NCBI GenBank assembly: GCA_023055425.1
Contig: JALGPY010000014.1
Span: 14,220,501 to 14,284,500 of the forward strand
Length of the DNA stretch: 64,000 bases
Source: Linanthus parryae
Taxonomy: Eukaryota > Streptophyta > Magnoliopsida > Ericales > Polemoniaceae
Direction of reading: 5' to 3'
Position 1 is the stretch's first letter; every line of letters begins with the position of its first letter. Below the pieces are notes generated by a model. The model had not been told where the DNA came from and ran no database searches. It saw only the letters and a list, made by a program, of their open reading frames with translations. The position numbers and the translations under genes were made by a program. Positions 27,204-63,403 of this stretch are shown here, one piece after another.

Positions 27204-27398
27204 AGTTTCAGTGCGAAAAATTGTCATTTTATAAGTAAGAAGCAATAATGGAATGAAGCTTTGCAACGGATAAAGGAGATCTCATATGGGAGAGTTATTA
27301 TCATTGATTAGGTCCTCATATGGGAGGATGTAGGAACATATATAATGTGAATGCGAAGCTAAAACATAAAGAGAAGGCAAATAGTACCTTTTGAGCCA

Positions 27399-34303: not shown

Positions 34304-34308
34304 ATTTT

Positions 34309-34326
34309 TGGCGTCGTTGCCGGGGA
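34309..34326 (+). other. Athila primer binding site, copy 1
   Basis: TGGCGTCGTTGCCGGGGA a few bases after the LTR, the well-known Athila-type site (close to the tRNA-Asp 3' end complement). Confidence 0.85.
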
Positions 34327-34428
34327 CTTTTAGGGTTTATTTAGTAGTCCGAATTAATTTTCATTGTTTTATTTTTTATTTTTATTTTTATGTTATCTCA
34401 CTGCTCTTGAGATCTCTATTTTTTCAGG

Positions 34429-35053: not shown

Positions 35054-35393
35054 CTGGACGAAAAGGTTGACAGAAATTGGCCCCATCCCGTCACTCAAAG
35101 ACCCACCAACCCTAGAGCTAAAACCGCTCCCGAGCTATCAAACTTTGGCACAGCCAAAGCAGTTTCAACTAGCGCAGATGGTACTTCTCTGCGATTCTCG
35201 GAAGCAGTTTTTCCCGGGAAAATTGAGATCTCGGTGGTCACGACCGTTTATCATCAAAGAGGTACTTTCATGGGATGCGGTTGAATTGGAGAATCTGCAT
35301 GACAGTTCAACTTTCAGGGTGAGCGGAAACTGGGTCAAGCCATATTTGGGCCCGATAGCAGTCGTCAAGGTAGATTGTTTTGACGTCCCTTGA
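35054..35393 (+). pseudogene. Athila remnant: integrase C-terminal tail, copy 1
   Basis: After LELKPLPSYQ, which resembles the Athila protease-RT junction, the frame passes directly to the integrase tail: QMVLLCDSRKQFFPGKLRSR, RPFIIKEVLSWDAVEL, FRVSGNWVKPYLG. RT, RNase H and the integrase core are absent. The element could only move with enzymes from a relative. Confidence 0.78.
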
Positions 35394-35453
35394 CCAAGCA
35401 TGAGGTAACTGGGTCAGGCCGTCGACCTTAAATTATAAGCGCTGGTTGGGAGG

Positions 35454-36079
35454 TGTAGATACTGCTTTCTGAGCTGACAGATCTTGGCCACGTGGCAGCC
35501 ATCCAGCACACCATATTGTGCTCCATACACACCGGATCACCAGCCGAGCTGATGCATGTGGGGGCTGCGAGACAGAGCCCTCGCATACCACTGCACGGGA
35601 CTTGTAGGGACTTTGTGGTTTGGAGGCTAGAGTAAGCCCTGTCGCGTGCGAGCCAAGCCCGCACGCGACCTTTAGTAACTGTTTTGAGAGATTTATGGCA
35701 CGAGATCCATAAACCCGGTCAATCCGGTCAAACCCGGTCAACCTCATAACGGTTCCGGTATTCGCGCACCACGTGCTCTAACGGTCCCTATATACTCGGA
35801 CGAACGTGCCGTTATGGTTAAGCTAATTAAGCCGCCATTAATGGGCGCATTAACCACACTACAACGGTCACGTTCTCCAGTATATATAGATCGTCAACCT
35901 TTCCATACAAAGGAGAACACACTGCCATACGCGGAAGCTCTGCCAAACCTCTGTCTCTCTCTCAGACATTGCTACTGCCTTACTCTCTCCCTACACACAA
36001 CCCCACTCTTCCTGTGCGATCCTTGATCCACTACATACGGTGTACACGGAGGTCTCCCCGCCGGAATCTCTTGTACACA
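35454..36079 (+). repeat. GypB 5' LTR (626 bp)
   Basis: Starts TGTAGATACTG, ends CTTGTACACA. TATATATA at 35881-35888 is the likely promoter. Confidence 0.96.
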
Positions 36080-36082
36080 TTT

Positions 36083-36101
36083 TGGTGAACCCGACGTGAA
36101 C
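36083..36101 (+). other. GypB primer binding site
   Basis: TGGTGAACCCGACGTGAAC, three bases after the LTR. GypA has TGGTTAACCCGACGTGAAT at the same place. I cannot name the tRNA with confidence. Confidence 0.7.
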
Positions 36102-36119
36102 TTACCAACAAAAGCAACC

Positions 36120-37775: not shown

Positions 37776-38733
37776 GGTCCACGAAGACGAGGACTACATC
37801 ATGGACACAGAAGATGAACGTGCCGACCGTATGAAAGGGTCACACGGCTTCAACAAATTCTTCGACGAGATGAATTTCTCCGAGAAGTGCCGGACTGATA
37901 TGACGAAAGCGATTTTGAGAATAGCAGAGGACTACGAGGAGGACCTTGTAGTCTCCAACGGGAAAGTCATCAGGGCATCCCGCTCTACAGGAAAGATTAT
38001 GACCTTTTCTGCCAGCGACAAGAAGACGGATGCGAGTCACCAGAGACCTCTGTACGTGACCGCCATCATCAATGGCGTCGAGTTCAAACGAGCGTTCGTC
38101 GATGGAGGAGCAGCGGTCAACGTCGTTTCGCTCCACACACTGAAGCTAGCAGGGATTCTCGAACACAAGATCGTCAGACGTCCATCTCCGCTCATGGGAT
38201 TCGGAAGCGACTCTAGAATGACGATCGGGTGGATCCGCCTGGGCGTTCAGATTGGCAAAATCAAGTGCTCAGCAAAGTTCTATGTCATAGACGCGAACAC
38301 CACATACCACATGATTATAGGTCGAGCCTGGATTCATCGCTTCGACGCAGTCCCTTCGACGGCTCACCAGGTTATGAAAGCTATCTGGAACGACAGAATA
38401 GTCGAGATACTGGCTTCGACAAACCCGTTCAACTTGGACGAAGCACATCTCAGCGAGGCGTTGTGGTTCACTGAGATGGCAGATGAACAAACACCCGGAC
38501 CATTCAACCCTACTCCTTTGCCTCTCAGGGAGGACATCAAGGACCAGTCGCCTGCAGGGGTAATGGTGACAAGGGAAGATGCCAAGGAAAAGCCGCCTAC
38601 ACGCGAAGAGGCGCCGCGTATCGTATATCATCGAAAGAACGTGTACACTCTGAAGAGGATCGCAAAGCATGACCCCGAGGGCAAGGAGATAGAGAGCTTC
38701 TACGCCAATGGGAAGAAATGCTACCGCATATGA
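37654..38733 (+). CDS. GypB gag tail and aspartic protease
   Basis: Continuation of gag in the shifted frame: NNPLPAHAEQGSKGKEVAMI (also in GypA), then the protease. Catalytic motif FVDGGAAVNVVS (about 38095-38130) with D-G-G in place of the usual D-S/T-G, flap region LMGFGSDSRMTIGWIRLGV and GRAWIHRFDAVPSTAHQ. It ends at TGA (38731-38733). The same stop in GypA, with homologous sequence in frame after it, suggests readthrough or splicing rather than a chance mutation. No start codon at the frame entry. Confidence 0.85.
   Translation, partial: DVRNNPLPAHAEQGSKGKEVAMISIVDLEEVAEDGLPIFAEVHEDEDYIMDTEDERADRMKGSHGFNKFFDEMNFSEKCRTDMTKAILRIAEDYEEDLVVSNGKVIRASRSTGKIMTFSASDKKTDASHQRPLYVTAIINGVEFKRAFVDGGAAVNVVSLHTLKLAGILEHKIVRRPSPLMGFGSDSRMTIGWIRLGVQIGKIKCSAKFYVIDANTTYHMIIGRAWIHRFDAVPSTAHQVMKAIWNDRIVEILASTNPFNLDEAHLSEALWFTEMADEQTPGPFNPTPLPLREDIKDQSPAGVMVTREDAKEKPPTREEAPRIVYHRKNVYTLKRIAKHDPEGKEIESFYANGKKCYRI
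38731..38733 (+). other. In-frame UGA between GypB protease and RT
   Basis: UGA followed by AGG. The same reading frame is open before (from 37654) and after (to 40330). GypA has UGA AGG at the homologous codon. The stop context is not one of the best-known plant readthrough contexts. Confidence 0.75.
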
Positions 38734-40359
38734 AGGTGCGCGGGGATGTCCTCACACGGGCATGAGGATATCCCTGGGCAAATCAATCAAATCGAGCAAA
38801 TTGCGCTGACGGAAGAGCCAACACAGGGCACTCCAGACGAGAAACTCAAAGAAGCGCCTGAATGCATGGAAGACAGGCCAAGACCGCAAAAGCAAGAGCT
38901 AAAGGAAGTGCTCCTCAGCCCGAACGAGGAAAAGAAAAGGCCAGTCTTCCTGAGCGCGGACCTCACAAGCGAAGAAGAACAAGGGCTGCTACAGCTCCTA
39001 ACTGAATACAAGGATGTGTTCGCATGGGAGTATGATGAGATGCCAGGTCTAGATACAAGCATCACCATGCACCGTTTAGACATCATCCCCGGGTCTAAAC
39101 CGGTCAAGCAGAGCACAAGAAGCTTCAGGCCAGAGCTTAACGTGAAGATCAAGCAGGAGATTGTCAAACTCCTAGATGCCAAGTTCATAGAGCCGAATCA
39201 TCATCCCACATGGCTGGCCAACATCGTGCCAGTGGTGAAGAAGAACGGACAGCTCCGCATCTGCGTGGACTTCCGAGATCTCAATCGCTTCTGTCCTAAG
39301 GACGATTTCCCACTGCCCAACATCGATTTTCTTATCGATTCAACAGTGGGTCATCGCATGTTCAGTTTCATGGACGGCTTCAGCGGATACAACCAAATCA
39401 AGATGGATCCCGAAGATGCGCGGAAAACAGCATTCATCACTCCTGTAGGGGTATTCAACTACACGGTGATGCCGTTCGGTCTTAAGAACGCGGGCGCGAC
39501 CTATCAGCGGGCCATGATGGCTCTATTCCACGACATGATGCACAAAGAGGTGGAATTCTATGTGGATGACCTGGTGGTTAAATCCAAGCACGAAGCAGAC
39601 CACCTCGCAGATCTGCGAAAGGTGTTCAATAGATGCAGGCGCTTTCAACTGAAGATGAATCCCATGAAATGCGCGTTCGGGGTGACATCAGGGAAATTCT
39701 TGGGATGCGTGGTTCATCGCCAAGGGATTGAGCCCGACCCCGCGAAAGTATCAGCTATTACTGGCATGACGCCGCCCCATAATCAGAGTGCATTAAAGAC
39801 ATTTTTAGGAAAGCTATCCTATCTGCGGAGATTCATCCCAGCAATTGCCGAAATCACATGCTGTTTTAGCACTCTTCTCAAGAAGGACGCCGCGTACAAC
39901 TGGGCTCCGGAGCACGAAGCCGCATTCGGAAAGCTGAAGGATTTACTCACGTCCTCAAAGATAATGATCGCGCCTCAACTGGGATCACCGCTTCTGCTAT
40001 ATCTGACATCAACAAGGAGATCTATAGGAGCGCTCTTGGCTCAGGGGTATGAAGGCCAAGAGAGGCCTATCTACTACATCTCTCGCATCGTGCAGCCTGC
40101 TGAATCGAGGTACACAGACATCGAACGTCATTGCCTTGCCTTATTCTTTGTGATAGAGAAGTTGAAACACTATTTTGCATCACACAAAGTAGTAGTGGTC
40201 ACCAAGAGCGACCCCATAAGATACTTGCTAACTCACACTACTCCGGGAGGGAGACTGGCGAAATGGTACATGACCATTTCCCAATACGATATCACATGCG
40301 TGCGACCACGAGCGATCAAGTCGCAGGCGGGTAGCAGATCTGTTGGCACAGTTCCCTGA
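38734..40359 (+). CDS. GypB reverse transcriptase and RNase H
   Basis: In frame with the protease after the UGA. Linker with EAPECMEDRPRPQ, then FAWEYDEMPGLDTSI, PGSKPVKQSTRSFRPEL, RT motifs CVDFRDLN, FMDGFSGYNQI, FGLKNAGATYQRA and the catalytic YVDDLV (39559-39576), thumb LGKLSYLRRFIPAIAE, then RNase H with LLYLTSTRRSIGALLAQ and RYTDIERHCLALFF. The RT active site is intact. An extra G in the run at 40329-40331 shifts the frame after AIKSQA; the natural frame continues in the next entry. Confidence 0.9.
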   Translation, partial: RCAGMSSHGHEDIPGQINQIEQIALTEEPTQGTPDEKLKEAPECMEDRPRPQKQELKEVLLSPNEEKKRPVFLSADLTSEEEQGLLQLLTEYKDVFAWEYDEMPGLDTSITMHRLDIIPGSKPVKQSTRSFRPELNVKIKQEIVKLLDAKFIEPNHHPTWLANIVPVVKKNGQLRICVDFRDLNRFCPKDDFPLPNIDFLIDSTVGHRMFSFMDGFSGYNQIKMDPEDARKTAFITPVGVFNYTVMPFGLKNAGATYQRAMMALFHDMMHKEVEFYVDDLVVKSKHEADHLADLRKVFNRCRRFQLKMNPMKCAFGVTSGKFLGCVVHRQGIEPDPAKVSAITGMTPPHNQSALKTFLGKLSYLRRFIPAIAEITCCFSTLLKKDAAYNWAPEHEAAFGKLKDLLTSSKIMIAPQLGSPLLLYLTSTRRSIGALLAQGYEGQERPIYYISRIVQPAESRYTDIERHCLALFFVIEKLKHYFASHKVVVVTKSDPIRYLLTHTTPGGRLAKWYMTISQYDITCVRPRAIKSQAGSRSVGTVP

Positions 40360-41533
40360 TAACAGCCACGAGCCCGTGATCGAAGAAGAGCTCGAAGGCC
40401 CTGAAATCTACGCAATCGACGTGCCCTATTGGACTCTCCACTTCGACGGTTCGTCAACCCGGAAAGGCGGAGGCATTGGGATAGTCTTGACGAAGCCAGA
40501 TGGGGAAGTCATACAGATGTCCGCAAAGCTCAACTTCGCAGTCACGAGCAACGAAGCGGAATATGAGGCTCTCATCGCGGGGCTCCGTGCGGCGAAAGCT
40601 CTGGAAGTGAATAACTTAACGGTCATGGGAGATTCCAAGCTGATTGTTAAGCAAGCCTCGGGCGAATATGGTTTGAAGGAGATCAACCTCCTGTCTTATC
40701 GCACCCTAGTACAAAAGCTGATGCAGCAATTCTGCGATGTGAAGTACGAGCACAAGCCCCGAGCAGACAACAGGCACGCAGACGCCTTAGCAACCTTGGG
40801 GTCTAAGGTCAGCATAGACAAATGCCCCGCAAGGATTTACATCGAAGTGCGAACATCGTCGGCATTGACAGAAGATGCGTGCGACGACGAACACATGGAT
40901 GACGCAGACTGGCGGAAACCAATCCTGCAAGCTATTGCGAAGGGCACCAGCAGCGAAAGCTGGACACTCACAAAAGGATACTGCATCCACGACAACACCC
41001 TTTACTACAAGGGTCCTGGGGGAATACTCATGCGATGCGTCTCCGAGCAAGAGGGACAGCAGCTGTTAGAAAAGATTCACCAACACGCCTGCGGGGAAAG
41101 CGAGGTGTCAATCTACAGAAAGGCTCAGAGATATGGTATTCATTGGCCAGACATGTCAACAGCCGCAGCCCTGATACAAGGGAAGTGCGAAAGTTGCGCA
41201 CTAATCAAAGATTCTCTACTCATCGCCCTAACCGATGACGACACGGACTGGAGGAAGCCACTATTTGATTTCCTCACCCAGGGCATCGTGCCTGAGTCAA
41301 GAAAAGAAGCCGAAAAATTGAAAAGGAAAGCGTCTCGATACGTGGTACAGGAAAACCTGCTTTGGCGAAGAGGTCACGAGGGCAACTTGCTGCGATGTCT
41401 AGACGGCAGAGAAGCACAAGAAGTCATGGACCTTTATCATCAGGTGGAACACCAAGGAGGTGCGAAATTATGCAGGCAGCTCCTCTCAATCGGGTATTTC
41501 TGGCCCACGAGGGCAACTTGCTGCGATGTCTAG
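40331..41533 (+). CDS. GypB second RNase H and integrase N-terminus, truncated
   Basis: VADLLAQFP continues the connection, then an RNase H fold of the archaeal type: LHFDGSSTRKGGGIGIVL, SNEAEYEALIAGLRAAK, MGDSKLIVKQASGEYG and DNRHADALA, the mark of Tat elements. It then enters the integrase zinc region (NLLWRRGHEGN, HQVEHQGGAKLCRQLL). A 131-bp tandem duplication (41375-41505 and 41506-41636) makes the frame end at 41533 after GYFWPTRATC. Confidence 0.88.
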   Translation, partial: VADLLAQFPDNSHEPVIEEELEGPEIYAIDVPYWTLHFDGSSTRKGGGIGIVLTKPDGEVIQMSAKLNFAVTSNEAEYEALIAGLRAAKALEVNNLTVMGDSKLIVKQASGEYGLKEINLLSYRTLVQKLMQQFCDVKYEHKPRADNRHADALATLGSKVSIDKCPARIYIEVRTSSALTEDACDDEHMDDADWRKPILQAIAKGTSSESWTLTKGYCIHDNTLYYKGPGGILMRCVSEQEGQQLLEKIHQHACGESEVSIYRKAQRYGIHWPDMSTAAALIQGKCESCALIKDSLLIALTDDDTDWRKPLFDFLTQGIVPESRKEAEKLKRKASRYVVQENLLWRRGHEGNLLRCLDGREAQEVMDLYHQVEHQGGAKLCRQLLSIGYFWPTRATCCDV

Positions 41534-41636
41534 ACGGCAGAGAAGCACAAGAAGTCATGTACCTTTCTCATCAGGTGGAACACCAAGGAGGTGCGAAATT
41601 ATGCAGGCAGCTCCTCTCAATCGGGTATTTCTGGCC
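41375..41636 (+). repeat. 131-bp tandem duplication in GypB integrase
   Basis: Copies 41375-41505 and 41506-41636 differ at about two bases (in the codons after GTCATG and CTT). 131 is not a multiple of three, so the frame shifts by two. A CCACGA/TCACGA similarity sits at the junctions, suggesting slippage or template switching. Confidence 0.92.
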
Positions 41637-42603
41637 CACGATGGAGGTCGATTGCCGCACCAAAGTACGACGCTGCCAGGAATGCCAATTCAAAGGGAAC
41701 CTAGTGCACGCTCCCGCCGTGGATCTACATGCACTAGGGACACCATGGCCATTTCACACATGGGCTCTGGACTTCATCGGTCCCATCCGACCGACGTCGC
41801 ACGGGAATCATTTCATTCTCACCGCAACTGAGCTGTTCACCAAGTGGGTGGAAGCAATACCGCTAAAGACGGCAAATGCGCTGGCTGTGGTCAATTTCAT
41901 CCAGGAAAGCATCATATGCAGGTTCGGAATCCCAAACACCGTTCTTTCAAATAACGGTACTCCTTTTGTTAATCGCCAGGTAGCTGCGAAATTAGCGAAG
42001 TACAATATCAGACAGATATGTTCTACCCCTTATTACCCAAAGGGAAACGGACAAGCTGAAGCGACTAACAAAACGCTTTTGAGAATTTTGAGCAAGATGG
42101 TCGCAGATGACCACAAGAAGTGGGCCGACTCTCTAAGCATAGCTCTGTGGGCTTACCGAACTTCTCCAAGGACACCCACAGGGGCCTCGCCATTTCTACT
42201 ATGTTATGGAGCCGAAGCTGTAGTACCTGCGGAGGTTAGAGTCAATTCGGCAAGGCTGGCCTTCCATGCACTCTATGAAAATCAACGCGATCACGACTTA
42301 GTCTTGCTGGAGGAAAAGCGAGAACAAGCCAAGAGAACCAACAAGCGATACCAGGAAAGAATCGCTCGCGCCTACAATAAGACGGTCCAGCGAAGAGATT
42401 TCGCGGTCGGAGACTTGGTCTTGCGCGCATCTGATCACTGCATGCGAGAAGCGACTCACCCGAAGTTCGCAGCCAACTGGGAAGGACCCTTCGAAGTCAC
42501 AGAAGTCTTTGACAGTGGCTACTGCAGCATACGAAGGTTGCACGGCACAACCTCTACTCCGAGTTCAGTCAACATGCGCTGGATTAAGAAGTACTATCCC
42601 TGA
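41506..42603 (+). CDS. GypB integrase, frame-shifted C-terminal part
   Basis: Second copy of the zinc region (HQVEHQGGAKLC ... CRTKVRRCQECQF), core with ALDFIGPIRPTSHGN, NTVLSNNGTPFVNRQ and PYYPKGNGQAEATNK, then AYRTSPRTPTGASPF, DLVLRASDHCMREATHP and MRWIKKYYP. The second catalytic residue, Asp in GypA (LSDNGTPF), is Asn here, a G-to-A change, so strand transfer should fail even with the frame restored. There is no chromodomain. Confidence 0.9.
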   Translation, partial: HEGNLLRCLDGREAQEVMYLSHQVEHQGGAKLCRQLLSIGYFWPTMEVDCRTKVRRCQECQFKGNLVHAPAVDLHALGTPWPFHTWALDFIGPIRPTSHGNHFILTATELFTKWVEAIPLKTANALAVVNFIQESIICRFGIPNTVLSNNGTPFVNRQVAAKLAKYNIRQICSTPYYPKGNGQAEATNKTLLRILSKMVADDHKKWADSLSIALWAYRTSPRTPTGASPFLLCYGAEAVVPAEVRVNSARLAFHALYENQRDHDLVLLEEKREQAKRTNKRYQERIARAYNKTVQRRDFAVGDLVLRASDHCMREATHPKFAANWEGPFEVTEVFDSGYCSIRRLHGTTSTPSSVNMRWIKKYYP

Positions 42604-42862
42604 CTTCTCTCATTTCATGCGTTTTATTATAACGTTGCTTGATATCTTGTATGGCTACGATTTACACAATCTCCTCCCCCATATGAGAGGATTGTAATCC
42701 CATCTCTCCCATATGAGAGCGTTATAATAAAAGAATTCTCCCAAATGAGAAGTTCACATTTCTAGCTGTTTATGTTGCTCTATTCAGTTTGTTATTACTG
42801 TTAATCATTGTTTATTCGCCGCAATAGCAATCTGTACAACTGCGATCTTAATTGATCAACTA

Positions 42863-43855
42863 AGCCTATCTCTTACGATAGCAGCCTATGCAAATGCGAT
42901 CTTAAGTGATCAACTAAGCCTATCTCTCGCGATAGCAGCCTATGCAAATGCGATCTTAAGTGATCATCTAAGCCTATCTCTTACGATAGCAGCCTATGCA
43001 AATGCGATCTTAAGTGAACATCTAAGCCTATCTCTCGCGATAGCAGCCTGTGCGATCTTAAGTGATCATCTAAGCCTATCTCTTACGATAGCAGCTATGC
43101 GATCTTAATTGATCATTTAAAGCCTATCTCTTGCGATAGCAATCTATGCAAATGCGATCTTAATTGATCATTTAAAGCCTATCTCTTGCGATAGCAATCT
43201 ATGCAAATGCAATCTTAATTGATCATTTAAAGCCTATCTCTTACGATAGCAGCCTGTGCAAATGCGATCTTAATTGATCATTTAAAGCCTATCTCTTGCG
43301 ATAGCAATCTATGCAAATGCGATCTTAATTGATCATTTAAAGCCTATCTCTTACGATAGCAGCCTGTGCAAATGCGACCTTAATTGATCATTTAGAGCCT
43401 ATCTCTTACGATAGCAACTTGTGCAAATGCGATCTTAATTGATCATATAAGCCTATCTCTTACGATAGCAGCCTGTCTAAATGCGATCCTGATTAATCTT
43501 CTAAAGTCTATCAGCCACGATAGCAACACATACAAATGCGATCTTAATTGATCTTTAAAGCCTATCTGTTACGATAGCAATTCATATGCGCGTGATCTTA
43601 TTTGATCCTCTAAAAGCCTATCTATTGCAATAGTAGCTCATGCGAATGCTAAAGATGATCCCGATCGATCTTCTAGTAAAGCCTATCTGCAACGATAGCA
43701 ACTTGCACAATTTAACGATCTTGATTGATCTACTAAAGACTATCTGCCATGATAGCAACTTGCAACATTGTGAAAATGATCTTAAATGATCCACAATGGC
43801 CAACCACAAGCCCATCTGCCAGGATGGCACAGCTGCGAAAATATGATCTCGAACG
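42863..43855. repeat. GypB tandem array, about 18 units of 47-66 bp
   Basis: Unit like AGCCTATCTCTTACGATAGC plus AGCCTATGCAAATGCGATCTTAAGTGATCATCTA. Two dyad elements per unit: GCCTATC...GATAGC and GATCTTAATTGATC. Units are near-identical at 42863-43450 and increasingly worn to the right. It lies between pol (plus) and the antisense unit (minus), which converge on it. The hairpin matches the GypA array motif read on the opposite strand. Confidence 0.88.
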
Positions 43856-44900
43856 ATCTAGCGAAGCATCAGCGAATTAATATATCGCAAATGCGAAACC
43901 ATTACATAGCATTATGCAAGGCGAAATATGCCGAAACGCATGCGAAATTGTATTTTGTTGTAAAGAGACAGCAGATAATACAAAAGGCCATTTATCATTA
44001 CGAGTCAAATGACTTACAATTTATCTGTCTAGATAGCAGCTTACAAGCGAAAAGCTCGAATCTAACTACGCAGCCAACATGGCTTACAATACATTCGAAA
44101 AGTGGCTGACAAGCCAGAAACACACTACGGGAATTCCGACTAGAAAAGGATGAACCCACCGGTTTCAACACCGGCTACGCAACACGCAGATCTGCGGGTG
44201 AACATCTGTAGCAGGGGGGATCTTGCTCTAAAAGAGCCACATGAAGCCATACGCTCAAGATCCCAGTATTCGACAAGACCGTTGTCAGATCTGCACCCCA
44301 TAACATTTGCCCAAGGAACCACCGGTTCCGGCGATCCACAGACAAGCAGAAGCTCCAAAGGGCAAGGGCTCCTTGTAGACGGGGATGAACGCGACAGTTC
44401 GCCACCCCGAGCTCACAAACGTGAAGTCGATGGATTCTCCTCCAGGGATGCTGGAGGAGAATTCCGCCGTTCATTACGAGACGGTAGCAGGGTCACTTCG
44501 GCGCTGCACCTCACCACGAGGCGGCCGGAAACATGACCTGCACACATAATACACGAAGAAATTTCTTCGAACGCACATGAGATATTATCTGCATCTCCTT
44601 TATGATGGTTATAAAGGGCAATAAGCCTCATAAAGTGGATCTTGGAAACTATTTCTACAGCACAAAGCGCAAACTCAGGATTCACAACTTGGAGTTGCCA
44701 TGAATCAACGAAAAATAAGCGTTGAAGCCAGCAGTCGTAAGGACTCACGGCAAAGCACATTTTTGGGATGAAGAACCCAAATAGCAAAGACAGGGTTTAT
44801 ATAGACCCTGTACAGACTCTTCGGTTGCCAAAGATGAGTCAGCAGAATTCAAAAAGAGGGTAAGTTCAATCACTTACGCCTTGAAAAGCGGTAACAATCA
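43856..44900 (-). pseudogene. Second, shortened antisense promoter and start in GypB
   Basis: On the minus strand GAAGAGTC is followed by CTATATAAAC (TATA at 44796-44803), and about 145 bp later by GTGCTGTAG then AAATAGTTTCCAAGATCC (44655-44635). GypA has GAAGAGTC, CTATATAAAC, GTGCTATAG and AAATGGCTCCCAAGAAATCC in the same order and place. Here the start codon reads ATA. Downstream frames (such as 44413-44787) resemble nothing I know. Region 43856-44100 shows nothing clear. Confidence 0.45.
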
Positions 44901-45220
44901 ATTACCCTACTAAAGGCTACGACGATTCAGTTGCGTATCCTAATAAATGACGGATAGTCATGATTCGGATGGACTTCCCAACGAAAGCGTGCTTATCTGC
45001 CGAGAAATTAGCGCGAAAATCAAGCAGAGTATCAATTGCTGATGTCATAATTGGATATGCACAGAAATATCCAATCAAATCCCGGAAAAGGGCAAAACGG
45101 GAAAATTCATTGTTGTTGTTGAAAAAAAGGGGGAGAAACCCTAGCAACATTACATTAATGTTTCAAACATTACATTAATGTTCCAGCTATTTTTTTGCTA
45201 TTTTTTTCAAAATTCGAAAA

Positions 45221-48200
45221 TCAAAGCAAATTCTTGATCAAGGAGTCTTGGGGCTCGAACTGCTCGCTCAGCTTCTCTACCTGTTCCACTTCTTGCTTCA
45301 ATTGCTCGCACTTGGCATTCATCTCATGATAGAGCTTCAGAGCTTCATCGACTTTTAGCTTTTGCTGCTCCACCTTCTGCTTCTCAGCTGCGAGATTCTG
45401 GTGGCCGAGTTTCAAAGTTACGGCTGCGCGAATCAGCGTGACTCTGTTCATAAGAAACTTGAAGCCCAGTCTGCCTTGGACTTTGGTCACGAGATTTTGG
45501 CACATGCCGCATAGCAACTCAGCACTCTGGACCGAAATGGTCGCAGGCGTAGCCGCAGACAGCTGCTCCAAAATCCAGATGGCTTCAGTAAGAAACAGCC
45601 TCCTGTCGAAGGGTCCTATCTCCAGAGATCTCACAAACGACTGCGGGTAGGTGAGACGCATTCGAACCACCCAGTCTACATCGGTTTGCTTCAAACCTGA
45701 GGAGACGTCAAAAATAAGTTATGATGTCAAAACTCGCAAGCGAATAATGCGACGTGCGAACAGCAAAGTTCTACTTACCAGTTCCTTCCAGAATCTCATG
45801 AAGAGAAGGAATGCGGGCTGCCGGGTTGTTCGAAGATTGCCCTCGCTCCATAGCTCTCCTATCAGCTGCGAGCTCCAATCTCTCGTAGTCAAGAGGAAGA
45901 GTGTAGGCCGCACCAGCTGCGACTGCATTCCCAACCTGCGAGCCCCAAATGCTCCACGCAGGAATAGGTGCCTCTGGCTCAGTCGTCGCCGGAGGCGAAG
46001 GGACAGCCGAAGTCGCTTGGCGAAGGACGCTCTCAGATGCGAGAACATTAGCAGCACTTGTCCTTACTTCCTCAGCACTAGCATGGACATCTTCATTCAT
46101 CAGCACAGTATCAGCTCCAGCATCGTCGGAAAGTTCGATGATGTCCTCGAGAGGCTCACCCGCGTGTTCAGCAGCTGCGACGGGCTTCTCGGTATGGGAG
46201 CTCAGAATTGGAACATAGGACGCAGAAGGCTGACTTCTCTGCTCCAGCTCAGGTTCCTCAACATGACCTGCGGTATTAAATGCGATAATATGAGGTAACT
46301 TGTGTTATAAGTTATTTCGCTATCTTTACTAAAGCTAAGAGTAAGCACCTCCACGCGAAGGTGGGATTGAGGTATCCTCATCATACACTAAGGACGTGGA
46401 ACCATGCCCTATCAGTGTGTCCTCACTAAGCAAGTCTTTAAGAGAAGCGTGACCTGGGATGCGAATAAACCAGTCATGATTCTGCCTTAAGTTGCTAAAG
46501 CCTAGTACGTGCGTATCACTCAAATAGTTACCTGAGGGTTCTCCGCATTTGCCTACTAACCAACGGCGAATGTCATCCTTTGACACACCATGCTTTAACG
46601 CACCCACAATAACATCTCTATAAGTTACTGCGAGATTGAAGATCTCACCTTTATCGCCACCTGCGATCTCTTCGAAGTCTGCTTGGACTTGCTCCAAGGC
46701 CGCTGCATCCTCTCCGGGAACCTCATCTTCCTCCTCCGCATGAGGAGCCACTTCTTCGGGAAGCTCGTCTTCCTCGCCAACTGGACGCATTGAGTCGTCA
46801 ACATGCTGCTCTTCGAGGCTCCGCTGTTTCACACGCTCGAGCTCCTCTTCCTCTCGCCGCCTTCTTCTTTCAGCAGCCTCCGCGACTGTCTTTCGGGACT
46901 CAACAAGAACGTCCTCGCTTATGGGCTCATCTGGAATGCCAGAATGGGCACCTATCTTTTGTCTCTTGGCCACAAGGCCACCAATGGTTTCATCATCATC
47001 ATCTGCGAATACACGATTGGTTTAAAGAAAAGAAGTGCAAAGAAGTTACGATAACGAGAAAGGGAATGCGACGGAGGTACCTCCTGATTCTTCCTCATGC
47101 AACACAACTGTTACTTCTTCTTCTTCATCACTTGCATGGGGCTCCTGCCTCTCTTCCTCTTCCTCTTGTTTGAATGGAACGAAAGTCTCAACTGCGAGAT
47201 CTTTCCGCACTTTGCTGGGCATGCGACCTTTGCCTTTGTCCTTGATAGAAAGGGACCTCACTGGAGGAGAAGCTGGGGCATTCCTAGGGGAAGAAATCGT
47301 AATTCCCTTTTGGCTAGGTCTTTTTACTCTTGGCGCCGCAGTCGCTGGAGGAGACGGGTCATCTCCAGAAGGAGACGGAGCCAGAGGATTGTCTATCAGC
47401 GAGTCAGCAAAAGCATTCATGACTGCGCGAATCTTTGTTTCGAGCTCAGGTTCCATCCTCCACGCTAGCCGGAACGACTGCCTTTGTCTTCTGGTGGCAA
47501 CAATGGCGTTAACCAATGACTTGGAGCGATCACCAGATGCGAATCGCCGCACATGACACTACAACCGTACAGAATAAAGACGTCAGCATAAGGAAATCAA
47601 GAAGCTTAATGCACGCGGAGAAATCGCTTACCTCAGCAAATGCCTTGCTATATCTGACGACATGCGTATCGCCCTTCTTAATTGCGGCAACTTGCTCCTT
47701 CAGAATGACATCAGGGCACAAATGGTTCTCACGATCCCACAGTGAGTAGCAACCATACTCAGACTCGCTCAGACTGCAAGTGGGGCGAAACGGAAAAGAG
47801 TTCCTTTTGATCAAGGGAGATCTACCTGGCTGCGCGGCCGACTCCATCTCAATCCTCGTTTGCTGGGCAACCCAGTATGCGAGCCAGTTCTGGGAACAAC
47901 CACCCTCGCGGGTTCCCGCAGGCTGCTCAAAAGGAAGATTGTTCATGAAAACCGTCTTGCACTCCTTTGTTAGCAAGCGCTCGTAGCATCCTCTGACAAT
48001 GGACTGGGGCCAGATTGATGGGGCCACCGCATCAAAACCAAACTGAGGAGAAACTCGAGTAAGGTCAACGTCCACGGTAAGCTTTTCGTACCTCGGCGCG
48101 AGCTCACGAATATGCTCTGCAAGGGCAGGAAGGGAACCTCGCAGACACCAGCAAAAGAACTCGCGGTAGCGCTCATGGAAATGAGGTCCCCCTTCAAAGA

Positions 48201-49512
48201 GAAGCTCTTCTGAAAAGACCATGCCTTTAGAGGGGTACAGCTTTGGAAACCATCGCACATTCTCAATGCGCGTGGCATAGGGCCTGGCAGTAAAATCCTT
48301 CCGTTTGTCGCATATCCAACTCCAAACGCACTTGGTGTTGCCTGTTCCGAACCATCTCGCAGCTCTTCCGCTGTTGCGCGCTTCTGTCTCGCCTGGGGGA
48401 CACCACTTGTCAAGTTGGAGAGCAGTTGGAGCATAAGACGGCCAGCGCTCGAAAACCCACATTGTTAAAAAGGAAATATTGACAAAAGTCAGTACATCGA
48501 GGCGGCCACGCGACTCCCTCATAGCCAGAACCAGCTGATCAAGCCTATAGTACAGCGTGCCCAAGACCAAGGGTCCGAGTGCGACTCTCTGGCCAAGAGC
48601 GAGCCTCACAGCAAGTGGCAACACATGGTAGAAGACTCCGTCATGGGAGTGACCATCAATCAAGTACCTCGACAGCCAGGCACAGAGAAAAGCACAAAGG
48701 GTCAAGTGATAACCCTTGCCCTCTACGTAATTCTCGGCCTCCGGATCTTCACTCAGAAGTTTCTTAGTAATGCTGCTGTTCGCATAGTCTCGAAAGAAGT
48801 ACTGCAACCATTTGTTCCAGGTATTCTTCGCGGATGTATCAACCAGCTGCCAGTTCGGAAGAGGCTTCGTAGTGGTCCACCGAGTGGAGATTTTCTTCAC
48901 CTCTGCTAGGCATTCCTCCATCTGCGTGTATAAGGCAATCTCCGCAGATGTCCTCAAAGGACTCAGAGGATCCACCTCGCCCATGGGGGAAAGCTCGTAC
49001 AGCATTTGAACGTCCTCGAGTGTGGGGGCAGCCTCGAATTCAGCAAAATGGAACGTGTGAGTCGCAGGCGAATAACGGGACAGAAGGTCTAGAAGCATGG
49101 ATTGATCCAGCTTCACGGCAGCACCCTTCATAGCACGGATAGCAAAGTATACGCCGGCTTCATCAAGAGTCGCGGCGTGATGATCCAACACGTGGTCGAT
49201 CCACTCATCCATATAGTCCAATTTCTGGACGAACGCCTGGGTAGAAATCGCAGTATATGGGAAGTGCCCGTTCTCGATTCCCAATCGAACCACATCCTCG
49301 GAACCAACCAACTCGAGCAAGGCTGAGTTAACTGGGCGAGTTAGCGTCAGCAATCGCTCAACTGGGACAGGATCAGGCATCCTCTTCGCCTTTACCCTCG
49401 CATGATAGAAATCTTTGCCGCCTAAAACGGGGGCTTTTCGCCACAAGGCCTGCGGAAGGTCGGGTATCTCTTCATCTTCCTTGACGGGTCTGGTTACTCT
49501 TGTCTTGGCCAT
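45221..49512 (-). CDS. GypB antisense gene: plant-mobile-domain-like protein, five exons, intact
   Basis: Exons on the minus strand: 49512-47632, 47558-47081, 47002-46349, 46267-45779, 45696-45221. Donors GAG/GTAAGC, GAG/GTACCT, GAG/GTGCTT, CTG/GTAAGT; acceptors TTGTAG, TTCGCAG, CCGCAG, CCTCAG; introns of 73, 78, 81 and 82 bp; phases 0,1,1,1. The spliced frame is 3978 nt, 1325 residues, no stop. N-terminal half: THTFHFAEFEAAPTLEDVQM (residues about 151-170), LPLAVRLALGQ, MWVFERWPSYAP, resembling the plant mobile domain of MAIN/MAIL proteins and of some transposons. Exon 2 has RRFASGDRSKSL and basic KGKGRMPSKVRK; exon 3 has RRRRR and GVSKDDIRRWLVGKC; exon 5 has a Glu/Lys/Gln heptad coiled coil. 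Nuclear location is inferred. Its role in the element is unknown. Introns survive because the genomic RNA is the opposite strand. Confidence 0.85.
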
Positions 49513-50180
49513 TCCTGCGGAAGAGCAAGAAAAAGGGGGGAGAAATACCACATTTCAGTTTGAATTTTGAAATTCAAGATCTATGCAAAGGAAGACGAAC
49601 AGTTCCGGTATCGATTTCAGAAATTGGGGAGTTGCAGGATCTCGTATTGTTGAAAGATTAAAACAAAGCGGGTTCAAAGATCAAAGCCTCTTCACAAATT
49701 TCATGGGTTTACAGATTCAACGCAGTTCAAGGCAAACACTGGTATCTTAAATCAAAAGTAAACGAGGCCAACCTTGTTTTCTTGAAGCCTGCTTGGATAT
49801 GCACAATTGAAGAATACGATTTGCAGTTCTGAACTGGTGATTGATTATCTGGATCTGCTCTCGAAGATCTCCGGGTACCATTCACTTTAAGAGAAAGAAG
49901 TGATGCTTTGCAATAATGGGGGATACAAGGTATTTATCCAAAACAATGAAGGGTTGCGTCCTTTCGGTAGTCGAATCGCAACCGTCACCGTCGAATCGCG
50001 CAATCACAGGACAAGCTGACGTCACGCCTAAAACCCTAAAGGTCAGACGGCACGACTCTAGGGGTTTTAGGTCATAATGACACGCACGGGGGCTGAACTT
50101 ACCCGTATTTGAATTGGTGCGTGGCGGCGACGCGTATGTTGGTTTCCGCGCATGGAAGTCTATACGGCTATGAGTCTTCA
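49513..50180 (-). promoter_or_regulatory. Upstream region of the GypB antisense gene
   Basis: No open frame. CTTCCGCAG directly before GAATGG of the start reads as an acceptor of a 5' untranslated intron, as in GypA. A TATA-like GGATAAATACC is on the minus strand at 49930-49940. The region lies between the gene and the 3' LTR, so the antisense transcript would start inside the element or in the LTR. Confidence 0.4.
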
Positions 50181-50199
50181 CGCGCAGAAAGGGGGCTAA
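50181..50199 (+). other. GypB polypurine tract
   Basis: CGCGCAGAAAGGGGGCTAA directly before the 3' LTR start TGTAGATACTG. Confidence 0.85.
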
Positions 50200-50825
50200 T
50201 GTAGATACTGCTTTCTGAGCTGACAGATCTTGGCCACGTGGCAGCCATCCAGCACACCATATTGTGCTCCATACACACCGGATCACCAGCCGAGCTGATC
50301 CATGTGGGGGCTGCGAGACAGAGCCCTCGCATACCACTGCACGGTACTTGTAGGGACTTTGTGGTTTGGAGGCTAGAGTAAGCCCTGTCGCGTGCGAGCC
50401 AAGCCCGCACGCGACCTTTAGTAACTGTTTTGAGAGATTTATGGCACGAGCTCCATAAACCCGGTCAATCCGGTCAAACCCGGTCAACCTCATAACGGTT
50501 CCGGTATTCGCGCACCACGTGCTCTAACGGTCCCTATATACTCGGACGAACGTGCCGTTATGGTTAAGCTAATTAAGCCGCCATTAATGGGCGCATTAAC
50601 CACACTACAACGGTCACGTTCTCCAGTATATATAGATCGTCAACCTTTCCATACAAAGGAGAACACACTGCCATACGCGGAAGCTCTGCCAAACCTCTGT
50701 CTCTCTCTCAGACATTGCTACTGCCTTACTCTCTCCCTACACACAACCCAACTCTTCCTGTGCGATCCTTGATCCACTACATACGGTGTACACAGAGGTC
50801 TCCCCGCCGGAATCTCTTGTACACA
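50200..50825 (+). repeat. GypB 3' LTR (626 bp)
   Basis: Same length as the 5' LTR with about five substitutions by eye. TATATATA at 50627-50634. Followed by the GGAGG duplication. Confidence 0.96.
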
Positions 50826-50830: not shown

Positions 50831-52667
50831 CAACCCAAATTAGGAGTAGTGTAATTTAATTTAGTTATTTATGTTAAAATTTAGAGAGGTGAGATGAGTG
50901 TGATATGATGTATAAGCAAGAATGTGCATGAAACAGCAGAGAAAAAAAATATGGAGCAGAAAAGTTATTGTCAATGTTGCTACGCAGGTAGCAATACGTA
51001 CAGTGCGCAGAACATGCAGCTTTCCAGAATCTTGAAGAATCGACCCCGGTGGGCTCTGGCACACTCGACCATCACAGGGACTCATACGAGTTGGGGATTC
51101 TTCAGGAATAGTTTTCAAGCAGACCAGATCAATCAACCCTGGTGTACGACAATACACTCGACCGTATGGGAGCACATTGTCATACGCAATTGTGCTTGGG
51201 GATTGCACATTTCAAGAGCACGCACACAACCCGGAAAGTTCAAAAAATTGCAACGAGCAAGTGTGGGGGTGGAGCGTTACACCTTGATCGGTTATGGATT
51301 TTCCCGATGACTTTTCCGGCAATAATTTCCGGCGACCGTCGGGGTCCATCTTGCCGGAAACTGCAAACTGCACCCGTAGACTTGCTTCGGGTGCTCAGGT
51401 CCACATTCCCTTGCTACTCCTTATTTTGCGTTTTAGGCACGAGCCCGTACCTGGGTCGATATTTGTGTGTTTTTCTCGGTTTCCGTGCCGAATGTGGAAG
51501 AACCCCTGGTAGTTGTAGGAGGTTAGTTGCTGAGAGGCACGCATCACGGGCACGTAATTTCTGCACATTTTTCTTCTTTATTTTTCTTCCTCATGGTGAC
51601 TTGACCAGTTCCACCAGTAGTCTGACCGGTTCTTCCGAGACTAGATGAGACCCGAATTTTGTGCAAGATCAGTTTGGGCCATGAGGGCATGCCACCTCTT
51701 AGTGTGGTGGTGGGGATCGTGTCTGCATTTACCAGGTCTTCACGTTTTTTAAACTTTATTTCTTGAGTCTGCACGTTTTCTTTATTTGTGTCAACCCACC
51801 ACAAATTTCTGACCATGCATTGTGAAAAAAAATTGAAAAATAAGAAAATTTTGAGGAAGGGCAATTGAATTAACAAGAGGCTTGACAGAAACTGATGATG
51901 GTCTTCGAACAGGAAGGAAAAACCACACCGAGGTGTAGTAGAGTGAGTGAGAACCAGTTCGCTTAGGAATCAGCAAGTACTGGTGGATTGGGCTAAAAAT
52001 CCGACTAGTTGCCACACCGCCGTCACTTAGGTAGTCGACAACCCGCCTACGGGCGCCATCACGGTCACTGCATCTTTCGGTGGAGTGATTGGCTCATAAC
52101 AGACCTCACGTTCTGTTTCTTAACCCTTGGTCCACTTAGTAACCCCGTTTGAATCCGTTTACCCTTTTTATTCATAGCCCGTGTAGCCTAGGAAGCCTTC
52201 TTTGTGACCTACATCACTCGTGTAGTTGGTTGTTCCTGCGCGTTATGACAGAGGGAGTGAGTTAGGGAGGGTTTCTGACAGGGAGAGCTTCATGACATAT
52301 TTTTGTGGGCAGTTTTGACATTTGCATGTTTTTTGAGGGTTGGACAGGGTGAGTTAGAGGCGACTGCATTGATTTGCGGAGGTGATTCAGTGCACTACAT
52401 AGTAATCATAGGTGGAGGAGTCGCGTGCGAGGCATCTTTCTGCACCGGGTACCGGGGGTTGTTGGGTTAGTTGGTGGTCATGCCGTTTTTCTACATCTTT
52501 GGTGATGAGGAGGTTCGGTAGGACTGCACGTACTTTGACAACGACTACATGATCGACGCTTCATGACTAGTGCGGGGGGACCGCAAAACGAGGACATTTT
52601 TCGTACGCCGCAAAATTGTATTATTTCTGCACCACTCAGCTTATATCTGTTTGTTTACTTACGTTAC

Positions 52668-52699
<32 letters not shown>

Positions 52700-52752
52700 C
52701 GGCGCAGACAGAAAATTAGCCACGCAACCCGTGCATTAGGAACACAAAAAAA

Positions 52753-52827
<75 letters not shown>

Positions 52828-53481
52828 AATGTTTTGTACAGTTATTTAATTAGATAGTTTCAAAGTTGAGTTAGTGGCACGGTTTTTTGGATTTTTCACC
52901 GCTTAACAATCGTGGCCGCGAGAACGGCGGAGACACACCAAGAACAGGGGAATTGAGTGAGAAGTAACTTAGGTGTTTCGGTCAGTTTCTCGGGACTCAG
53001 TGAGGGGTGTGTGTTGGGAAACTGTGAGATGTCGTAACAAGTGAGAACATGCCATACCTTGATATACACTTTTACATCCCGTCTGTTAGACTTAGGATCC
53101 CGGATTCGGAAACAGCTCGAATGGTAGGTATACTAAGGATTTGCCCAATTTGGTCACGGAAGTAACAGTACTATGTGCCAGTGCTATATATCCACTCGTA
53201 TAATCTGTTAGACTCACCGATCCTGTGTGGATATGTACTTCCTAGTTAGAAGGTGAGGTTTGGTTGATGTACCGTTTTGCGTTAAGGAGATTGCCCGATC
53301 TCACCTAGAAAAATATTTGTTTTGTGACTAATTGAGTCTGTATTTGTTGAGTCTGTACATTCTTTTCTGAGTCGGTTTTCTATTGAGTCGTCTGGTTTTA
53401 AGTTCGGGTCAGAAAAGTATGCAATCGGGACAGTATGCAAGAGGTTTGCTCGGGTCGAGCAAATTATAGTGTGGGGGTATT
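50831..53481 (+). other. Athila internal 1, 3' noncoding part
   Basis: Continues the Athila sequence after GypB (CAACCCAAATTAGGAG). No conserved protein recognised; the frame at 51142-51648 has a partner at 57108-57662 but no known domain. AGCAAGTGTGGGGGTGGAG near 51257 is an internal purine tract. A run of 28 A (52672-52699) and an AAAT microsatellite (about 52747-52828) are far longer than in internal 2. The end, GTGTGGGGGTATT, serves as polypurine tract before LTR2. Confidence 0.75.
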
Positions 53482-55419
53482 TGATAACGCCAAGTAGGGG
53501 TTATCTTTTAGCCTGATCTGACGTGCCATTGTGCCGAAAAACTGTTTTCTAGCCAGAATTCACCCTCGGACAGCCTCGGTTTTAGGAACGAGATGTTTAT
53601 TTGCTCTTTGTAAATTTCTGCTTATTTCACGCACTTCGAGATATGATCACGGGTTCTTGTTCGTTTGTCTATGCAGGAGCAGGGCTTGTGCAGGAGCCGG
53701 AAATAAAGCATGATTGCAAGAGTGAGAACCGAGGAAGCTGAAAACGCCAAAACCGAGAATGAACAGGATGCACTCGGTTGGCAATACCTTGGGCACAACT
53801 TGGAATTTGGAAGTGAAATCGGGGGCAGAAGAACGATGACGTCAAGGGCTTTCCGAAAATAGGTTATAATGATGAAACGGAGTCGGGCCGAAAAACAGAC
53901 TCCCGTCAAGTGGGGGTCTCAGACAGGCTACGCTCAAGTAAGGAGTCTCGGTTCACGGTGTCCGGAGTCGGGACAAACTATTGCATGATCGTGATGATTT
54001 ACGAGACAGTTATGATCTAGGGGTATTTTGGTCATTTGGCACCGGCCCCGGGTTTTCGGAAGTTGAGTTTGGATTTTGGCGCCCAGAATCATTCACCAGT
54101 TTGCTAGGACCAGAAGAAGAGATGCAGGAGGAGGACCCAAGGAGGCTGAGGAAGCTAAACAGGGCAGTCGAAGTCCCTGTCTGTGTGGCTAAATATTAGC
54201 GACGCAGCCAGGGTATTAGCGACGCAGCCAGGGTATTAGCGATGCAGCCAGGGTATTAGCGACGCAACCAAAATATTAGCGACGTAGCCAGGGGAGTTAG
54301 AGAGAGATTTTGGTACTGAACAGAGTCCCTGTCTGCGTCGCTAAATATTAGTGACGCAGCCAACATATTAGCCACGCATACAACACGTTTTCCGAGGCAG
54401 TTTCGGCCTGTGGCAGTTTTGTAGTTTCGGGCAGTTTTCTGGAAGCTTCTCAAGAAGTATATAAAGACTTGTCCAGGGCTCATTTTAGAACACCACACTA
54501 CACCCAGAATTCAGAGTATCCCGGAGAGCACGGAAGCGCGAACCCATATTTCAAGACACTCGTTTGCTCTTCTTCTCTCTCTTATTCAAAAAATTTGTTT
54601 TTTACGTTATGAATTTCGGTAGCTAAACTTTTACCTAGGTTCTCAGTGAACCTAGGGTTTCGTTCTCAGAAATTAGCTCCACGTATTGGTTATGAATTCA
54701 TGATTATAGTATCTTAATATCAGTAGCTTTATTCGTTATTTTGTCTTTGAATTTTACTGTTCATGCATGCTCGGCTTAATCACCCAGAATTGCTACAGAC
54801 CCGACCCGGTAGGTGAAAACGTCTGGTTAGGGTTAGGAAGAGAAGATAGAATTTAGCACCTTACCCCGATGGACCGACCAGAGAAGGGGATATAGGACTA
54901 GCCCAAAACGTTAGACCAACTGTTACGATCTTTTACCGAGGCCATTACGAGAGGTTAGAAACCCTAACAGACTTAGAACGGGACTGCAGATTTTGGCAGC
55001 TTAACAGGAATCCGAAAGTGTGCAGGATCGTGATAGCATGCAGGAAAAGAAAAGATACTGCGCAACTAGTACGTGGCACAGATAAATAACTGTTGTGTGT
55101 TTTCGTACCAAACAAAGAACATAAATCTGTAGAAACCCTAGGGGATCCTGGGACCTAGTATATGAAACCCTAGATTTTACAACCTTCGAAATTTCTTCAG
55201 AAAAACGACACAAAAAATATTTACCGTTTTAGCTGTTAATTTTCAGTACGCAGTTAGTAATCATACTCTCAAATCACTCCTCCTTTTATACTATGCAAGT
55301 TAAGCCCGACTGCTAGAAAAGACCTGAAATCGTCTTCGTGGGAACGATCACCCGAGTTGAAATACACCCAGTATTACTCGATTCGTATACTTGCGAATAG
55401 CACGTTAGTTTGCGCATCA
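53482..55419 (+). repeat. Athila array LTR2 (1938 bp)
   Basis: TGATAACGCC...GCGCATCA, TATATAAA at 54458-54465, the 21-bp repeat cluster at 54185-54300, and the empty hAT site near 55258. Shared by both internal regions. Confidence 0.93.
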
Positions 55420-55424
55420 ATTTT

Positions 55425-55442
55425 TGGCGTCGTTGCCGGGGA
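55425..55442 (+). other. Athila primer binding site, copy 2
   Basis: TGGCGTCGTTGCCGGGGA, identical to copy 1. Confidence 0.85.
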
Positions 55443-55547
55443 CTTTTTAGGGTTTATTTAGTAGTCCGAATTAATTTTCAGAGTTTTATTTTTTATTTTA
55501 TTTTTTCTGTTATCTCACTGCTCTTGAGATCTCTATTTTTTCAAAAC

Positions 55548-56257
55548 GGGCGACAATACCGAGAGAACGCCAGAACTTCCCGAGACACGTACTCCATCCG
55601 AGATGGCTCGATACATCGAGGATCTGATCGCAGCAGGGTTTGCTGCCCGGAACAACCAGAGGACATACAACAGGTCTGGAAAGGCTTTGGTGGAGAATTT
55701 TGAAGTCCCCTCGGGAGGACATGAGCCAACCATCATAGTGCCTCCAATCACTGCAGATGGTGGACAGATCCGTGAAGCAGGCATACGGAGTTATTGAAGA
55801 CATTCTGGTGAAAGTCGGAGAATTGATTTTTCCAGCAGATTTCGTAATACTGGACATGGAGGCAGGCGAGGTACCCCTCATTCTGGGCAGAGCGTTTCTG
55901 GCTACCGGAGAAGCCATGATAAACTGCAAAAGCGGAGAACTGACCATGCAGATTAATGAAGACAAGGTGAAGTTCAACGTTTTAAAAAATCTGCGACTGC
56001 CAAACTACTACGAGCATGAATACATCTCCACTGTGGAGGTAGTCGAAGAAGGCTGGGAAAACGAGGAGATGGACGAGCTATGGGAAGATATTGAAAGAGA
56101 GGACAGAGAGGAGGATAGATTCCAGGAGGAGCAGGCCATGCAAGCTGAAAACCGGACCAGTTTGCCGCTGGACCAAAAAGGTGGACCGAAATTGGCCCAG
56201 ATCTCGTCACTCAAAGACCCACCAATCCTAGAGCTAAAATCGCTCCCGAGCTATTAA
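55548..56257 (+). pseudogene. Athila remnant: gag start fused to protease region, copy 2
   Basis: Same fusion as 34429-35053. The gag start reads ACGGGCGACAAT where copy 1 has ATGGGCGACAAT, so the start codon is lost. Protease frame 55757-56257: VIEDILVKVGELIFPADF and GEVPLILGRAFLATGEAM, then an acidic tail with EEDRFQEEQAMQAE. The frame stays open further than in copy 1. Confidence 0.75.
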
Positions 56258-56509
56258 ACTTCGGCACTGCCAAAGCAGTTTCAAGTAGGGCAGATGGTAC
56301 TTCTCTGCGATTCTCGGAAGCAGTTTTTTCCGGGAAAATTGAGATCTCAATGGTCACGATCGTTTATCATCAAAGAGGTACTTTCATGGGATGCAGTTTT
56401 ATTGGAGAATCTTCATAACAGTACAACTTTCAGGGTGAGCGGAAACTGGGTCAAGCCATATTTGGGCCCGGTAGCAGTCGTCAAGGTAGATTGTTTTGGC
56501 GTCCCTTGA
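56258..56509 (+). pseudogene. Athila remnant: integrase C-terminal tail, copy 2
   Basis: QMVLLCDSRKQFFPGKLRS, FIIKEVLSWDAVLLENL and FRVSGNWVKPYLG, as in copy 1 and with the same upstream deletion joint. Confidence 0.78.
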
Positions 56510-63400: not shown

Positions 63401-63403
63401 AAT

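Follow-up and report, generated by a model that had tools for sequence, protein, structure and literature searches.

A predicted six-exon antisense gene with a plant mobile domain, kept by selection in a Tat-lineage LTR retrotransposon of Linanthus parryae

A long terminal repeat (LTR) retrotransposon of Linanthus parryae carries an antisense gene of six predicted exons, and the protein encoded by this gene is under codon-level purifying selection, both among copies of the element and among element families. The element, called element A here, is a Tat-type Ty3/Gypsy element at 35454-50825 of the stretch of DNA analysed, 64,000 nucleotides of contig JALGPY010000014.1 (the window; positions below are window positions unless another location is named). 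The antisense gene lies between pol and the 3' LTR, a region of about 7.6 kb (42603 to 50200). It is beyond chance: selection is specific to its reading frame, and the same structure is found in other families. We think it probable that this Tat lineage element has a complete antisense gene whose product would be a nuclear accessory protein acting in trans on copies of the element.

An earlier note on this DNA, made from the sequence alone, had described five minus-strand exons joined by four GT-AG introns with matching phases into 1326 codons. All of this was reproduced. The exons run 49512-47632, 47558-47081, 47002-46349, 46267-45779 and 45696-45221 and give 1326 codons including the stop. 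The introns, all GT...AG, measure 73, 78, 81 and 82 bp, have phases 0, 1, 1 and 1, and lie on the minus strand at 47559-47631, 47003-47080, 46268-46348 and 45697-45778. In the four intron search windows there are 12 open combinations of GT/AG pairs; the one chosen gives the longest product and is also the model of the earlier note. The exons thus stood. The gene as described lacked a 5' coding exon and a likely promoter. Upstream of the ATG at 49512 there is an acceptor with exactly two bases left before that ATG, and a further exon, exon 0 (49881-49773, minus strand; 109 nt from its ATG), joins it in frame through a 258-bp phase-1 intron (intron 0, 49515-49772). With the next two nucleotides exon 0 encodes a leader peptide of 37 residues, and exon 1 becomes 47632-49514. 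This makes six exons and 1362 residues. The GT and AG of intron 0 are kept in all 21 rows of an alignment of element A (44900-50825) with 20 sibling copies, and the leader is open in 19 of the 21. The ATG at 49512 as the only start was rejected, since five families have exon 0 in frame.

The siblings were the best-scoring to exon 1 of element A, a non-random sample (20 fetched of 39 matches listed; 6907 first-look candidates). One of them, L009, is truncated and was set aside in counts on the antisense frame, leaving 20 readable copies including A. Variants found in one copy (private) are mostly younger than the insertion, and variants found in several copies (shared) mostly come from a transposing ancestor. 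The two classes differ sharply in the antisense exons. Shared variants there are 59 nonsynonymous to 94 synonymous (59 N:94 S), against 240 N:151 S for private ones (p=2e-6), and variants that create stops number 0 of 153 shared against 11 of 391 private; both counts leave out 28 columns in which more than two bases occur. Shared variants are also rarer in exons (181 of 3978 columns) than in introns (31 of 314; p=2e-4), and private variants have the same density in both (p=0.56). For shared variants omega, the ratio of nonsynonymous to synonymous change, is 0.25 overall, with 0.07 before the plant mobile domain (PMD), 0.16 within it, 0.63 in exon 4 and 0.11 in exon 5 (8 N:30 S). Exon 4 is thus the least constrained part, and exon 5, with its Q/K/E-rich end, is strongly constrained. 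Restricted to transversions, omega is 0.38 for shared and 0.96 for private variants; with CG and CHG sites left out, it is 0.30 and 0.57. Four of the five other frames give shared omega values of 1.5-2.8. Exon 0 has 6 N:3 S private variants and 1 N:0 S shared, which by itself is weak evidence of selection. None of the 20 readable copies has lost the start codon or any of the eight splice dinucleotides of the five-exon model. In 10 of these 20, A included, the five-exon frame is intact, and in 9 the six-exon frame. The suggestion of the earlier note that selection has kept the antisense protein is therefore upheld by the shared and private variants, and also by the comparison of families given below.

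The same copies provide a control on the sense strand. As the earlier note had it, pol of element A is broken: there is a 131-bp tandem duplication (41375-41636) and an Asp-to-Asn change at the second catalytic residue of the integrase, to which we add an in-frame stop, absent from that note, separating two adjoining pol open reading frames (ORFs). In the integrase stretch shared variants are 3 N:32 S against 42 N:50 S private (p=6e-5), and 13 of the 14 rows with full coverage of the stretch have it open (6 rows with partial coverage were left out). The second catalytic Asp is present in all 17 readable siblings, so that the Asn is private to A. Within these copies the integrase is more constrained than the antisense gene; in the lineage selection acts on both strands, and once inserted both of them decay. 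The notion that the antisense gene was kept in A while pol was lost is not supported. Special preservation of the A copy was rejected on the same grounds: with a private Asn, a frame intact in 10 of 20 copies and the stronger constraint on the integrase, selection acts on transposing lineages and not on the element A insertion.

The same antisense gene was found in element B, an older element of the window, and in four divergent loci (L041-L044), the related frames in other elements that the earlier note would have expected. The loci were picked, in addition to B, for long open frames from 150 scored matches of 58-74% identity, which biases them towards intact copies. In B the gene is decayed (20675-25326, plus strand; tblastn 41% identity over 627 aligned positions), with exon 0 at 20675-20768, intron 0 at 20769-20894, exon 1 from 20895, intron 1 at 22757-22835 and a C-terminal match reaching 25326. 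Equivalents of exon 0 occur in B, L041, L042 and L043 (the upstream part of L044 reads N). Intron 1 stands at the identical place in phase 0 in A, B, L042 and L043. A, B, L041 and L044 agree in the place of the intron 4 donor and in its phase, which is 1; in L042 and L043 a motif scan found no such donor site. The integrase domain (INT) is on the strand opposite to the antisense gene in A, B, L041 and L044. Among B and the four loci dN/dS is 0.12-0.14 in eight of ten pairs, and two pairs are saturated. Between A and B synonymous sites are saturated, and pN/pS is 0.48 in exon 1, 0.15 in INT and 0.21 in RT-RH; the antisense protein therefore changes faster than pol. Introns persist across these divergent elements, as would be expected if they escape removal in the sense-RNA cycle, which the earlier note had proposed.

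The antisense gene likely has a TATA promoter of its own, judging from the DNA upstream of exon 0. A block at 49900-50124 (minus strand), which aligns with other families, has no shared and 28 private variant columns in 225 (p=2e-7 against the LTR plus introns, an optimistic value because the limits of the block were chosen after the variant bins had been seen). It contains TGACGTCAGC at 50024-50015 and the TATA-like GATAAATA at 49938-49931. A TATA-like box precedes the leader ATG by 57-62 nt in A, B, L041, L042 and L043. These five have a common layout: a leader of 31-36 codons, CAAG|GT, then AG, two bases and ATG. When this layout was imposed as a constraint, it left one candidate exon 0 each in L041, L042 and L043.

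What kind of protein is this? Exon 1 matches the PMD profile PF10536 at residues 127-436, counted from the ATG at 49512 (E=4e-27; 95.7 bits against a cut-off of 34.9), and the profile search proposed in the earlier note thus gave the domain it had anticipated. Transposase_28 (PF04195) gave no match at E<=1 when the five exons were scanned one by one. The short leader and the PMD are followed by acidic and basic low-complexity stretches and the Q/K/E-rich end, which would presumably form a coiled coil. Exon 3 is acidic and has a DIRRWL motif common to A and B; basic clusters lie at residues 440, 687, 836 and 869. In a search with the exon 1 protein 8000 candidates were scored and none reached E<=0.001, and a sequence search of PDB gave no match. 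An AlphaFold2 model of exon 1 (17 rows) has a mean pLDDT of 52.9 and a pTM of 0.54; many blocks of the PMD core are at about 70-85 and the remainder is low. A PMD tree of 14 rows unites the six antisense proteins in a single group (100/100). A PMD gene called L034 adjoins them, and the seven other PMD rows stand apart.

Between pol and the antisense gene, element A has a tandem array with a period of about 55 bp (42837-43760, plus strand; the TRF array is 42837-43579) built on the motif AAGCCTATC(N6)GATAGCAGC. There are 16 exact CTATC-N6-GATAG sites in A, from 42866 to 43740. In the window 22 of the 23 exact sites fall inside the arrays of A and B (that of B is at 26690-27204 on the minus strand, with a period of 37 bp), where base composition predicts 0.07 for the window. 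When as many as 5 of 20 scored positions may mismatch, A has 19 of the 24-bp units of the motif, B has 16, L041 has 9, L042 has 14, L043 has 2 and L044 has 10, and shuffled sequences have none; because the motif was derived from these arrays, the counts describe it and do not test it. The spacing of units is about 55 in A, 37 in B, L041 and L044, 32-36 in L042 and 43 in L043. An array between pol and the gene, of differing period, is thus common to A, B and three of the four loci, and it is this recurrence, across families with saturated synonymous sites, that is the finding. Within A's own family 19 of the 20 siblings have 11-18 exact sites (one of those in L021 is outside the array), and the truncated L009 has none. 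An RNA hairpin was rejected as the meaning of the array. As RNA, three stretches of units showed no better folding than their shuffles did (z of -1.15, 0.34 and 0.00), arm changes in 88 units (from A, B, L041-L044 and sibling L020) are mostly uncompensated, and the sixth pair is lost in most units of the A family.

How might such a gene work? We suggest that it is transcribed and spliced as an RNA polymerase II gene in its own right, independently of the LTR. Its introns would survive because reverse transcription copies only the sense RNA, and the element does not replicate through the antisense mRNA. The product would be a nuclear accessory protein that serves the lineage in trans, and most likely it would alter the chromatin or silencing state of copies of its own element. 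Action on element chromatin is suggested by likeness to the host PMD proteins MAIN and MAIL1, described as acting in silencing (PMC5418596), and to VANC (PMC10398659); a role in silencing or transcription is thus an argument from analogy. The best candidate for a target would be the array of 24-bp motifs between pol and the gene, as VANC acts on VANDAL elements. Taken further, the spliced PMD protein and the AAGCCTATC-N6-GATAGCAGC array might form a sequence-specific anti-silencing pair: the protein would bind the array beside pol and shield copies of its family from silencing, perhaps by displacing the MAIN/MAIL1 pathway of the host. We consider this extended version unlikely.

Several observations weigh against the explanation just given. 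Private omega in the antisense frame is 0.63 and not 1, meaning that some private changes predate insertion or that mutation is biased. The mirrored sense frame, whose third positions match the antisense ones, has an omega of 0.31; six shared variants change stops there. Neither sample was random, the siblings being best-scoring and the loci picked for their long open frames. L044 keeps the donor of intron 1 and has no AG before exon 2; in L042 exon 2 begins with a stop codon; L041 is unreadable for intron 1, and L044 for exon 0. In L042 and L043 no INT turned up within 9 kb. The tie between protein and array is one of co-occurrence alone, and a host factor could bind the array instead. Finally, the targets of VANC are described as diverging fast (PMC10398659), in contrast to the motif core here, which is conserved between families.

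The alternative that fares best concerns the array. A host protein (an insulator, enhancer or silencing factor) may bind it with no tie to the antisense protein. In favour of this, the motif core hardly differs between families, although their antisense proteins share only about 41% identity; against it, the motif adjoins the gene in the element families examined. We see host binding as quite possible, though short of probable.

Next comes a different job for the protein. It might be a structural or enzymatic helper of retrotransposition, active in nuclear import, particle assembly or targeting of integration, and not a regulator of silencing. Such a helper would fit selection acting on transposing lineages as well as the basic clusters of the protein, and nuclear import of the pre-integration complex has been raised in a review passage (PMC7264820). 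Genes translated from genomic RNA do not look like this one, with its apparent own promoter and several introns, and the related host domain acts in silencing according to the account cited above (PMC5418596). Neither objection is decisive. On balance we find a helper doubtful.

A third alternative dispenses with the protein: the antisense transcript itself would matter, by pairing with genomic RNA, feeding small interfering RNA or tuning the element, and the frame would be incidental. A role for the transcript has been put forward for antisense ORFs of plant LTR elements (PMC7264820), and the promoter block is conserved. Against it stand the shared omega of 0.25 in the predicted frame, with 1.5-2.8 in four of the five others, the greater conservation of exons than of introns and the dN/dS of 0.12-0.14 between families. 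The transcript as sole function is largely refuted by this codon-level signal, and the alternative as a whole is very improbable. Least credible of all is a captured host gene that hitchhikes in a young insertion and is still open, for although LTRs that are 99.2% identical leave little time for decay and host-type PMD genes are plentiful in the genome, the shared variants contradict it, divergent families have the same gene, and the antisense PMDs group in a single clade (100/100) that excludes the seven other PMD rows outside L034.

Returning to the accessory protein that we favour, parts of it have precedents. Antisense ORFs in Retand and Grande are already known (PMC11963269, PMC7264820), and so are PMDs in Gypsy elements (PMC5418596, PMC6317226, PMC9289625), as far as the passages cited go. 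The antisense ORFs of Retand, including Silene Retand, gene23 of maize Grande and rice RIRE2 are like the gene described here in belonging to the Tat lineage and in coding antisense between pol and the 3' LTR. These elements also have tandem repeats in that region; the Retand proteins have been argued to be regulatory, and that of Grande is reported as nuclear and expressed from its own antisense promoter (all PMC11963269, PMC7264820). The differences are as follows. Transposase_28 is present in the antisense ORF of 97% of Retand clusters (PMC11963269), and element A has a PMD instead. The gene of A has six exons and five introns, and those surveys counted unspliced ORFs, as their passages describe it (PMC11963269, PMC7264820). 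The region from pol to the 3' LTR, about 7.6 kb in A, is given as 2.9-6.6 kb in them.

In Ogre elements the extra ORF usually has the sense orientation and lies 5' of gag. PMD-A proteins of Gypsy elements and the PMD-containing extra ORFs of Ogre share with A a PMD within a Ty3/Gypsy element, and the passages that describe them state neither antisense orientation nor introns (PMC5418596, PMC6317226, PMC9289625). MAIN and MAIL1, of the host PMD-C type, act with PP7L in silencing and gene expression; they are described as single-locus host genes without LTRs, unlike the gene of A, which is multicopy and inside elements (PMC5418596, PMC7156037). PMD-B and PMD-C genes lie outside elements, and the antisense gene lies within an LTR element with a target duplication. 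VANC of VANDAL DNA transposons, a different class of element, is alike in another way, as an element-encoded protein reported to target tandem repeats of a motif in the noncoding DNA of the element (PMC10398659). Element A too has a tandem array of a short motif in a noncoding region.

Literature searches over titles and the starts of abstracts, with sparse coverage of subscription journals, found no multi-intron antisense gene in an LTR element and no motif array paired with such a gene; an antisense PMD ORF may have been published before. For years antisense accessory genes have been on record from plant LTR elements with no function assigned to them, and a 2020 review urged looking at antisense and spliced transcripts (PMC7264820). 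A survey limited to unspliced ORFs longer than some cut-off would pick up a gene like this one only in pieces. Here the predicted junctions are exact, a promoter is predicted, codon-level evidence points to a protein and there is a candidate target site, which makes an accessory gene directly testable. If the array is the target, sequence-specific anti-silencing would extend from DNA transposons to LTR retrotransposons; if the anti-silencing pair is real, retrotransposons would have a counterpart of VANC of their own, made from another protein.

The remaining features of element A can be given briefly. Its LTRs (35454-36079 and 50200-50825, plus strand) differ at 5 of 626 positions, have TG...CA termini and are flanked on both sides by GGAGG; most siblings share the A base (50825) at which the element ends. 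With about 1.3e-8 changes per site and year, the LTR divergence corresponds to about 0.3 million years, so the insertion is young. The broken sense region gag-PR-RT-RH-aRH-INT (36027-42603, plus strand) consists of ORFs at 36027-37775, 37618-38733, 38734-40359, 40274-41533 and 41296-42603. It has Pfam matches to PF03732, PF00078, PF17919/PF17917, PF13456 and PF00665; a match to PF09668 is below the cut-off. The order of domains is RVT_1, RT_RNaseH, RVT_3 (PF13456) and rve. Since aRH sits between RH and INT, which is a criterion for the Ogre/Retand type of the Tat lineage in the passage concerned (PMC6317226), element A is assigned to that type.

Element A also seems to have a second antisense start. 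A TATA-like TATATAAACCC lies near 44804-44794, with an ORF from an ATG at 44760 (44413-44820, minus strand). The stretch is open in most siblings and not in L014 and L020, and has 5 N:5 S shared (ten variants only) and 26 N:9 S private variants. Around the insertion site a unit of about 6.0 kb stands in tandem (50942-61431 and 31783-35453, about 92-94% identity), interrupted by A; its ORFs are Athila-like by eye.

Element B (19677-63859, minus strand) is a Tat element that appears split by nested insertions, A among them. Its LTR pieces at 19677-20121 and 63403-63859 are about 91.5% identical, and A is located between them. Downstream of the first start of the PMD gene there is a second, MAPKK...-like copy in B (26054-26434, plus strand), L041 and L044, which suggests that the start of the antisense gene is duplicated in these three. 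In L041 and L044 this second start is situated between the gene and INT, with motif arrays flanking it.

L034 lies within L045 (G000 C57:122933500-122941000), and its overall layout is like that of the antisense protein. No INT match is found over 7.5 kb at L045, which may be a host relative, a copy that has been domesticated, or a further element. PMD (PF10536) genes form large local clusters at G000 C57:126.3-127.7 Mb, C46:154.9-155.9 Mb and C2:29.2-29.9 Mb. Many of the clustered genes have long open frames, and the PMD gene family is expanded in the Linanthus parryae genome.

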